Source of the DNA: Cupriavidus alkaliphilus
GTDB lineage: Bacteria; Pseudomonadota; Gammaproteobacteria; Burkholderiales; Burkholderiaceae
Direction: 5' to 3'
NCBI RefSeq assembly: GCF_900094595.1
Contig: NZ_FMAD01000014.1
Coordinates: forward strand, 1 to 64,000
DNA: 64,000 bases
Part shown: piece after piece, positions 41,647 through 43,584 of the stretch
Layout of the letters: each line of letters starts with the position of its first letter
Position numbering within the stretch: position 1 is the stretch's first letter
The notes under the pieces: generated by a model
What the model was told of the DNA's origin: nothing
The model's input: only the letters and a program-made list of their open reading frames with translations
The model's database searches: none
Position numbers and translations under genes: made by a program

Positions 41647-42273
41647 ATGACGAGCAACAAGGAAGCGCTGGCCGCGCCGGTGCGCTGCGGCTGGTGCGGC
41701 ACGCTGGAGGACTATTGCCACTACCACGACACCGAGTGGGGCTTTCCGGTGGCCGACGACCGCCGGCTGTTCGAGAAACTGTGCCTGGAGGGATTCCAGT
41801 CCGGCCTCAGCTGGCTGACCATCCTGCGCAAGCGCGAAGCCTTCCGCAAGGCGTTTGCCAATTTCGACATCGAGAAAGTCGCGCGCTTCACCGAGCGCGA
41901 TATCGCGCGCCTGCTGGGCGATGCCGGCATCGTGCGCCATCGCGGCAAGATCGAGGCCGCGATCAACAATGCCCAACGGGCCCGCGAACTGCTGGAATCG
42001 GAGTCATCGCTGGCGGCCTACTTCTGGCGCTTCGAGCCCGATCCCGCCAGCCGGCCGAAGGTGCTGACGCCAGAGGTACTGCGCACCATGGCCATTTCGC
42101 CCGAGTCCACCGCGCTGTCCAAGGACCTGAAGAAGCGCGGCTGGCGTTTCGTCGGCCCCACCACGATGTATGCGCTGATGCAGGCCATGGGCCTGGTCAA
42201 CGACCACCAGGAAGGCTGCGCCACGCGCGCGCAGGTGCTGGCGGCGCGCAAGGTATTCAAGGTGCCGCGCTAG
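41647..42273 (+). CDS. tag: DNA-3-methyladenine glycosylase I
   Basis: A 208-residue Tag-type glycosylase removing 3-methyladenine from alkylated DNA. Zinc ligands match the E. coli pattern: Cys14 (RCGW), His27 (YHDTEWG), His187 and Cys191. The catalytic/binding Glu48 lies in LEGFQSGLSW. RGWRFVGPTTMYALMQAMGLVNDH is the conserved C-terminal block. It is followed by a palindrome-rich intergenic segment. Confidence 0.95.
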   Translation: MTSNKEALAAPVRCGWCGTLEDYCHYHDTEWGFPVADDRRLFEKLCLEGFQSGLSWLTILRKREAFRKAFANFDIEKVARFTERDIARLLGDAGIVRHRGKIEAAINNAQRARELLESESSLAAYFWRFEPDPASRPKVLTPEVLRTMAISPESTALSKDLKKRGWRFVGPTTMYALMQAMGLVNDHQEGCATRAQVLAARKVFKVPR

Positions 42274-42651
42274 CCGGTATACGGGCCGCCGCGTATACGT
42301 GGCGGCCAGGTACTACCGCCACGCGCAATGGTCCTGGCTGTCGTCTTTATATTGTTTACGTATGTAAACATAGTAGTAGTAGGTAAACCTCGCTGCGGGC
42401 CGTGGATAAGTCACCTTTTTCCTTCCGGCTCAGTGACTTGCAGCAAAGATAACGGCCCCGGGATAACCCTGATTTCCCGGGACAAGACGCCGGCAACGTA
42501 TACATCTGCCGCGCGCCCCCATGAGTTGTTCGTATACGTTTCACAGCGCATCCCCAACCGCGACACAGCTTGTCCGGCCGGTTATCCCCAGCCTGGGCGA
42601 AGCTGTCCACAGCCCGGCTCAACCCTCGGCAGCGGCTGCGCCCACGTATAC
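42274..42651. repeat. Intergenic cluster of CGTATAC palindromes and DnaA-box-like words
   Basis: GTATAC occurs five times (42277, 42293, 42498, 42532, 42646), mostly as CGTATACG-like palindromes; the copy at 42293 is the centre of a near-perfect 24-bp palindrome (42284-42307). Two single-mismatch DnaA boxes occur: TTATCCACG on the minus strand (42401-42409) and TTATCCCCA on the plus strand (starting about 42582). An A/T-rich patch lies at 42343-42392. AAGTCAC/GTGACTT arms (42408, 42433) form another hairpin. The flanking genes are convergent, so this is not an ordinary promoter gap. Function unknown. Confidence 0.6.
42353..42370. promoter_or_regulatory. Perfect 7-4-7 inverted repeat, protein-binding site candidate
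   Basis: TGTTTAC-GTAT-GTAAACA inside an A/T-rich patch between convergent tag and the CDF gene. The form suits a dimeric DNA-binding protein (TetR, GntR or a ParB-like protein), but no regulator gene is adjacent. Confidence 0.5.
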
Positions 42652-43584
42652 CGGGTCGACGTGCGTCATCACGTTCAGCACATGGTGGTGTTCCAGCGTG
42701 CGGCGCCGCGCTTCCACGGCGATGGCATGGCCCTGCGCCACGGTCAGGGTGGCGTCGATCTCGAGGTGCACGTCGACCAGGACCTGGTCGCCCATCTTGC
42801 GCGTGCGCAGTTCGTGCAGGCCCAGCACGCCGGGCGTGGCCAGCATGGTCGCGCGGATCGCGGTGACGGTTTCCTCGTCGGCGGCGCGGTCCATCAGGTC
42901 GTTGAGCGCGTCCCAGCCGAAGCGCAGCCCCATGCGCGCCACCATCAGCCCGACCACGAGCGCCGCGATCGGGTCGAGGACGTGGTAGCCCAGCAGGTTG
43001 CCGCCGATGCCGAGCGCCACCACCAGCGAAGACGCCGCATCGGAGCGCGCATGCCAGGCGTTGGCCACCAGCATGCTCGACCGCACCCGCCGCGCCACGG
43101 CCAGCATGTAGCGGAACAGCAGTTCCTTGGACGCCAGCGTGGCCAGCGCCACCCACAGTGCCACCGGCTGCACCGGCTGCGCGCCGCCCGCGGACTGCAG
43201 CTTGCCCAGCGCCGCCCACAGCATGCCGGCCCCCACCGTCAGCAGCAGCACGCCCAGGGCGAGCGACGCGGCGGTCTCGAAGCGCAGGTGGCCGTACTGG
43301 TGATCGGCATCGGGGTCCTTGCGGCTTTGCCAGCCGGCGGCCAGCACGACGAAGTCTGAAAGCAGGTCGGACAGCGAATGCGCGGCGTCGGCGATCAGCG
43401 CCTGCGAGCCGGAGATCACGCCCGCGACCGCCTGCACCGCGGTCAGGCCGATATTGACCGCCACGCTGACCAGCGTGCTGTTCCGGCCGGCGCGATGGCG
43501 CGCCTCGGCTTGCGCCGCGGGAGGGGCGTCGTCGTCGGGCAGGCTGCCCGGTTTTGCGCGCATGCGGGGCGAGTGCGAATCCAT
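42619..43584 (-). CDS. Cation diffusion facilitator (CDF) metal exporter
   Basis: A 321-residue CDF transporter with six hydrophobic helices. Metal site A is formed by HSLSD in helix 2 (ADAAHSLSDLLSD) and HARSD in helix 5 (ANAWHARSDAASS), i.e. His/Asp pairs as in FieF/MamM rather than the His-rich Zn-only type. The C-terminal cytoplasmic domain has the fold marks GVLGLHELRTRKMGDQVLVDVHLEID and ends in a His-rich TLEHHHVLNVMTHVDP. It exports Zn(II), Fe(II) or related ions by proton exchange. The last CGTATAC word of the flanking segment lies within its final codons. Confidence 0.9.
   Translation of the reverse strand: MDSHSPRMRAKPGSLPDDDAPPAAQAEARHRAGRNSTLVSVAVNIGLTAVQAVAGVISGSQALIADAAHSLSDLLSDFVVLAAGWQSRKDPDADHQYGHLRFETAASLALGVLLLTVGAGMLWAALGKLQSAGGAQPVQPVALWVALATLASKELLFRYMLAVARRVRSSMLVANAWHARSDAASSLVVALGIGGNLLGYHVLDPIAALVVGLMVARMGLRFGWDALNDLMDRAADEETVTAIRATMLATPGVLGLHELRTRKMGDQVLVDVHLEIDATLTVAQGHAIAVEARRRTLEHHHVLNVMTHVDPVYVGAAAAEG

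Follow-up and report, generated by a model that had tools for sequence, protein, structure and literature searches.

At oriC of Bacillus subtilis, the basal unwinding system (BUS) has a DnaA box from which a filament of DnaA is loaded onto 3'-GAT-5' repeats, the DnaA-trios (PMC6669920). Recognition sites of an orphan adenine methyltransferase are also dense at some bacterial origins, as in the GATC/Dam/SeqA system of E. coli oriC (PMC7364216) and the CcrM/GANTC system of Caulobacter. In Burkholderia cenocepacia, GTWWAC sites lie near the replication origins; two or more of them fall between DnaA boxes, and the dominant motif there is CACAG (PMC7364216). In Ralstonia, the intergenic region between SET and HU genes has three methylated GTWWAC sites that have been read as promoter control (PMC5390034).

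One origin per chromosome is the accepted rule in bacteria, and the proposed multi-origin exceptions considered here were argued from counts of DnaA boxes, from indicator genes and from skew. A proposal of two origins on one chromosome, the same as the one made here, exists for a related genus: Gao (2015) lists two putative origins, one at dnaA and one at hemE, for Ralstonia pickettii 12D (PMC4403523). For CHR1 of Cupriavidus metallidurans CH34, a skew transition near 3,837,500 has been described, with DnaA boxes and ~90 kb from dnaA (PMC2864759). In a marker-frequency panel with a Cupriavidus among its members, all chromosomes are said to have clear roofs, and the accessible part of that report mentions no two-peak profile (PMC13342612).

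Here, we consider an intergenic gap of Cupriavidus alkaliphilus within a window of 64,000 nt (the whole stretch of DNA that was analysed; contig NZ_FMAD01000014.1, positions 1 to 64,000). Judging from sequence, the gap is a putative second oriC-type element of Cupriavidus chromosome 1, locus A, that is marked by methylation, while the main oriC is probably another locus, B; we put the probability of this reading at roughly 0.56. It is built on what is observed at A and B: their anatomy, conservation, pairing and orientation, the enrichment of a methylation motif, and the presence of a methyltransferase gene. In the literature searched, parts of it seen as partial text and most subscription papers, supplements and DoriC tables lying outside the search, neither A, nor paired modules, nor GTWWAC crowding at Cupriavidus origins is described.

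An unwinding module between tag and a transporter gene

The gap is 345 bp long (42274-42618) and is bounded, as an earlier note on this DNA had it, by convergent genes: tag on the left, for DNA-3-methyladenine glycosylase I (41647-42273, plus strand; PF03352, E 1.4e-72), and on the right a gene for a cation-efflux (CDF) transporter (42619-43584, minus strand; PF01545, E 3.3e-48, and PF16916). On its minus strand, the gap contains a basal origin-unwinding module that consists of a DnaA box, a spacer, four DnaA-trios and a melting site. The order of the minus-strand core is TTATCCACG, a G/C-rich spacer, TTTAC, CTACTACTACTA, TGTTTACATACGTAAACA and A/T-rich DNA. The DnaA box TTATCCACG, with which the module starts (42401-42409, minus strand), has one mismatch to TTATCCACA and is conserved in alignment A1. 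The four trios, recognised from the sequence and the same alignment, occupy 42371-42382 (minus strand CTACTACTACTA; four TAG on the plus strand). A putative DNA unwinding element, 42338-42387, contains TGTTTACGTATGTAAACA and is the least stable 50-mer of the gap (nearest-neighbour stability, z 4.8); it coincides with the A/T-rich patch of the earlier note and ranks within the least stable 0.06% of 50-mers in the window, where three other sites are less stable. The whole module (42343-42418, minus strand) scores 65.8 bits with a sequence model, R1.

Locus A and the B. subtilis BUS have in common a DnaA box, then 3'-GAT-5' trios, then an A/T-rich site (PMC6669920). At A, the box is beside the trios on the right strand and in the right order, and the easily melted site adjoins the trios. 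The B. subtilis elements have the same relative orientation as those of the Cupriavidus module. There are also differences: the Cupriavidus module occurs twice per chromosome, far from dnaA, and has one trio-side box rather than two. Where an oriC would have at least three DnaA boxes with no more than one mismatch, A has two with one mismatch, as previously noticed (42401-42409 on the minus strand and TTATCCCCA, 42582-42590, on the plus strand), and a third, weak box with two mismatches (CTGTCCACA, 42603-42611, plus strand).

Because R1 includes A loci, it matches A partly by construction. A second model, R2, therefore keeps 16 of the 30 rows of R1, all of them from B, from C (a third module, described below) or from other genera, and none from A. 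R2 matches A at 42346-42414 with 44.3 bits (E 2e-12) and has no other match in the window at E 1; it also finds A in all nine named Cupriavidus loci. Over 1.47 Mb, comprising three relatives and 12 kb around dnaA of the source genome, R2 gives six strong matches, one at A and one at B in each relative, and two weak ones (E 0.02 and 0.05) that adjoin B.

The module is conserved in the genus. The trio run TACTACTACTA is exact at A in 16/16 genomes and at B in eight of the same 16, a count biased towards A, since only genomes in which A had a DNA match were eligible (20 of the 22 genus genomes). Loci can also be picked by tag: the nine top-ranked of the 80 tag-homologue loci kept are Cupriavidus (82-100% identity), and all nine have the module within ~1.1 kb of tag, with TACTACTACTA exact in eight and altered in the ninth, L223. 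In the remaining 71 of the 80 loci, a model search at E 0.1 found no module near tag. Several stray matches to TACTACTACTA were rejected by eye: one ~5 kb from B, which is coding for a Tyr-rich stretch, those in L126, L130 and L145, which read as coding, and one in L142, which has no DnaA box.

Two palindromes reported in the gap are present. The repeat TGTTTAC-GTAT-GTAAACA (42353-42370) has perfect arms and an imperfect centre, and this is the sole occurrence in the genome of the arm pair at that spacing; a 24-bp near-palindrome with GTATAC at its centre (42284-42307) has one mismatched pair. The ParB parS consensus is a palindrome of the TGTTTCACGTGAAACA type. The palindrome in the gap is TGTTTACGTATGTAAACA, so the suggestion of a partition site is unsupported. 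Elsewhere in the window, Rfam has a match at 2083-2142 to RF02278, a Betaproteobacteria toxic small RNA (54 bits).

A second module, B, faces the other way

In the source genome, the module model finds A and B and no others at E 0.01. B is on contig C8 at 244.1 kb, between HU and SET-domain genes and ~104 kb from dnaA, and has its own GTATAC/GTWWAC cluster and DnaA boxes (L085 3700-4500, which is C8 243.7-244.5 kb). Exactly two modules are present in 56 of 60 Cupriavidus genomes; C. necator H16, a strain amenable to laboratory work, belongs to this genus. Three genomes have one module (G089, G159 and G208), and the remaining exception, G205, which is 54% complete, has none; a more sensitive search of these four left the counts unchanged.

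A and B share a contig in 32 genomes. In 31 of these, the lower module is on the minus strand and the higher on the plus strand, meaning that each module has its trios on the outer side; the spacing in these outward pairs is 134.6-219.8 kb, and the 32nd pair (G217) lies near the two ends of its contig. G089 and G159, both 99% complete, have one module and no DNA match to A, so the surviving module is probably B, and A looks dispensable.

How do these loci relate to origins proposed before? First, the CH34 origin call fits B, which is at 3,835,904 in G219; another cluster of boxes at 3,707,588 is 24 kb from A (3,683,260 in G219), and A itself is not described in the accessible part of that paper (PMC2864759). 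Second, the R. pickettii 12D sites adjoin dnaA and hemE (PMC4403523), whereas the dnaA-adjacent DNA of four genomes lacks the module. The gene hemE lies between A and B in all six same-contig genomes inspected (G131, G222, G129, G067, G024 and G144), so the 12D sites are probably neither A nor B. Third, the region upstream of dnaA was considered as an origin and rejected: it has DnaA boxes, and R1 found no module in the dnaA-adjacent regions of four genomes. One such region, L084 3601-3796, has four DnaA boxes with no more than one mismatch, and neither a trio module nor GTATAC. Fourth, the gene neighbours of the SET/HU region described in Ralstonia (PMC5390034) agree with those of B, which identifies that region as locus B.

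GTWWAC sites and their methyltransferase

The five GTATAC hexamers reported for 42274-42651 start at 42277, 42293, 42498, 42532 and 42646 and are every copy in the window. Their number was correct, and their placement needs one change: with the end of the transporter ORF at 42619, the coding end of that gene includes the fifth copy. In shuffled versions of the window, at least five copies in the whole window were seen in 3/100 shuffles. Given a background of 0.043 per kb (1.45 Mb sampled from three relatives), ~0.016 copies would be expected in 378 bp, far below the five observed. In those 1.45 Mb, at least four GTATAC come together in 800 bp at five of the six module loci (A and B of each relative) and nowhere else; locus A of G227, the one left over, is divided between two sequence stretches. 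The earlier note would have given up its claim had there been many similar clusters elsewhere or no conservation; the regions sampled hold no such surplus, and the gap module is conserved across the genus.

GTATAC, GTTTAC and GTAAAC are all instances of GTWWAC, the motif of a known methyltransferase discussed below. Eight GTWWAC sites form a cluster at 42277-42651 (starts 42277, 42293, 42354, 42364, 42383, 42498, 42532 and 42646), and they are 8 of the 12 in the window. The background is 0.145 per kb in the 1.45 Mb of three relatives. In these sequences and in 0.8 Mb of one Ralstonia-like genome, at least six GTWWAC in 800 bp were found only in the three Cupriavidus relatives, at five of their six module loci, the split A locus of G227 again being the exception. 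Per 800 bp, each of 17/17 A loci has 5-12 sites and the 12 B loci have 11-18, and the A loci of the nine named loci picked by tag have 7-9 in every case. Seven control hexamer families have 0-2 sites per 800 bp at A and B of the source genome. Compared with B. cenocepacia, then, two loci of a single Cupriavidus chromosome have 5-18 GTWWAC per 800 bp.

Three side observations concern these words in the source genome. A further small cluster of CGTATAC, four sites in 56 bp, lies at contig C10 181030-181085, and two palindromic copies of CGTATACG lie 650 bp apart at C9 170696-171353; the module model has no match at either. Genome-wide, CGTATAC has 86 strand matches, compared with 291 for the reversed control word, and thus seems to be avoided outside origin loci.

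C. necator H16 is methylated at GTWWAC, with 95.3% of sites detected (PMC6742796), and an orphan methylase has been assigned to the motif in that strain (PMC12645576). The Ralstonia enzyme for GTWWAC and its conservation across Burkholderiaceae have also been described (PMC5390034). In a domain search for N6/N4-methylases, the source genome has one strong and two marginal matches, and a strong PF01555 match is present in 11/11 genomes searched. The gene sits between trpB and trpA in the source genome with nothing else between (trpB was called as a PLP-enzyme gene, PF00291; trpA as PF00290 in G131 and by eye in the source genome). Its product matches PDB 8urk (E 4.5e-127) and, more weakly, CcrM/RsrI-type enzymes. 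We infer that this is the GTWWAC enzyme. As would be expected of a methylation-gated origin, the motif of an orphan methyltransferase is enriched at the locus and a methyltransferase gene is present, with the motif assignment taken from PMC6742796 and PMC5390034. The likeness to Dam and CcrM has limits: the motif is GTWWAC, and the enzyme resembles CcrM/RsrI-type methyltransferases.

Where does replication start?

In G131, where A is at 42 kb, both the DNA left of A and the A-B interval have negative raw GC skew. Over the ~100 kb to the right of B the skew stays near zero, and past ~315 kb it is mostly positive. Cumulative skew has minima near 215 and 315 kb (about 200-315 kb). On each arm, FtsK-type GGGNAGGG words have a preferred polarity (18:1 and 2:16), which changes in G131 at ~320-350 kb, beyond both B and dnaA. 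Between A and B, they are mostly of the left-arm kind, with right-arm words making up 0/12 in G131, 2/17 in G222 and 4/19 in G227, and the left-arm kind persists beyond B.

A first coding-corrected skew analysis was flawed in that long shadow reading frames were counted as genes, and a gene check retained 121/257, 123/222 and 137/242 of them. That analysis had suggested a switch near A and another, in the reverse sense, within the A-B interval, as would be produced by two active origins; with the frame-checked genes, the signal at A is gone. At four-fold sites of these genes, skew left of B is negative in three genomes (-0.041, -0.061 and -0.078), and from A to A+50 kb it is +0.005 to +0.024, with errors of ~0.02 and at most two standard errors from zero. 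Coding-corrected skew is +0.041 and -0.031 on the far arms of G131, so the test lacks power for a 145-kb interval. The main switch in strand asymmetry is at or beyond B, not at A, and B is probably the main oriC. A main oriC would lie at such a switch and beside dnaA or indicator genes; in G131, A is away from the switch and ~248 kb from dnaA.

What could locus A do?

We propose that DnaA would bind the box at 42401-42409 and, as an ATP filament, would be guided from the box onto the TAG trios. The filament could then melt the adjoining A/T-rich site, after which helicase loading would be possible. B, ~145 kb away in relatives, in the HU/SET intergenic region and facing the opposite way, would probably serve as the main oriC. 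Because A and B are both packed with GTWWAC sites, both would be hemimethylated after fork passage, and hemimethylation would probably gate re-initiation or DnaA access in a Dam/SeqA- or CcrM-like manner. The likeliest role of A is that of a secondary element of origin type, open to melting by DnaA, that may fire in some cycles or act as a control locus. That the trio run is exact and the GTWWAC cluster is kept makes A look functional. The second-oriC reading is supported by the match of R2 to A, by the two modules in 56/60 genomes, and by dnaA regions that lack the module. It is weakened by skew without a switch at A, by the mostly left-arm GGGNAGGG words between A and B, by the two genomes in which A seems to be missing, by the altered trios of L223, by the presence of just two DnaA boxes with no more than one mismatch, and by published roofs without two peaks.

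Some of these weaknesses are what would be expected if A starts no forks and is instead a DnaA-control site, similar to datA or DARS, that binds, titrates or recharges DnaA and is timed through GTWWAC by the fork from B. We regard this as possible, though on the unlikely side. Strand asymmetry without a switch at A and the apparent absence of A from two genomes that retain one module both suit a control site, as does the distance of 145 kb from B, which would allow timing by gene dosage. However, neither titration nor recharging needs trios or a melting site, yet the trios of A are exact in 16/16 genomes picked for A and in 8/9 loci picked by tag, and there are just two or three DnaA boxes. 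The earlier suggestion of a replication or DnaA-titration element pointed in the right direction, and what the gap has is a genus-conserved module of DnaA box, trios and melting site.

It is quite improbable that A is the main oriC and B an auxiliary. The trio run is cleaner at A than at B in the genomes compared, and the core of A resembles the single module of another genus, g10. However, skew in G131 is lowest near B or past it, the CH34 authors place their skew transition at B (PMC2864759), and A can be missing, as in two genomes. GTWWAC sites are also commoner at B, where the SET and HU-side neighbours are kept in both genera compared.

Bacteria do not usually have a second oriC-like site, which gives some appeal to the idea that A has no function and is what remains of an integrated replicon or of a relocated origin. 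We consider this very unlikely: two modules are found in 56/60 genomes with conserved orientation, the trios are conserved, and no plasmid or phage match was found. The same absence of plasmid or phage matches, with conservation across the genus, leaves the earlier idea of a relic replicon unsupported. An iteron origin of plasmid type was likewise rejected: the hexamers, once called iteron-like, are irregularly spaced (16, 205, 34 and 114 bp from start to start) and fit GTWWAC, the neighbours are tag and the transporter gene with no rep gene, and there is no plasmid match.

Least credible of all is that the GTWWAC cluster regulates neighboring genes or a small RNA, as PMC5390034 reads the three methylated sites at SET/HU, the equivalent of B, in terms of promoter control; the genes at A converge, so that the gap is upstream of neither, and it has no Rfam match at the gathering threshold, which also leaves a hidden small RNA unsupported.

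What are the implications of a second oriC-type element at A? First, the Cupriavidus modules make a break with the one-origin rule testable, and they do so with a model of the melting module itself. Second, they suggest an origin-related job for the conserved orphan GTWWAC methyltransferase of Burkholderiaceae. Third, the multiply methylated SET/HU region of Ralstonia can be reinterpreted as an origin, and its reading as promoter control deserves revision. A bolder claim would be that the main chromosomes of Cupriavidus (two modules) and Ralstonia-like genomes (three) normally use more than one DnaA-dependent origin within ~220 kb, with the GTWWAC methyltransferase, whose motif is dense at both Cupriavidus modules, synchronising once-per-cycle firing. 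This is doubtful. If true, it would provide a natural multi-origin bacterial chromosome and a control of origins by methylation at a motif that is neither that of Dam nor that of CcrM.

Modules in other Burkholderiaceae genera

In a sample of the family, 177/200 genomes match the module at E 0.001. Genus g24, labelled Ralstonia-like from its genome layout and the published SET/HU methylation site, has three modules in 14 of 16 listed genomes and two in the other two, which are less complete. In G129, a member of g24, B retains the SET neighbour and the same genes beyond. The third module, C, is 18-34 kb from B where both share a contig, and its neighbours in G129 are genes for an HTH regulator and a member of the low-molecular-weight phosphatase family. 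In g24, there are no GTWWAC sites within 400 bp of A (10 loci) and 2-3 at B and C (6 loci); compared with these sparse sites, GTWWAC crowding is a Cupriavidus trait.

Genus g10 has a single module in 21 of 22 listed genomes. In a set of 18 genomes from seven further genera, the three of g11 have an outward-facing pair 46-61 kb apart, with lower scores. Taken across genera, these counts indicate that more than one module per chromosome is common in the family. Of the same 18 genomes, nine (G050, G171, G150, G085, G044, G097, G083, G045 and G099) have an inward-facing pair ~3 kb apart, again with lower scores. These close inward-facing pairs resemble bipartite origins.
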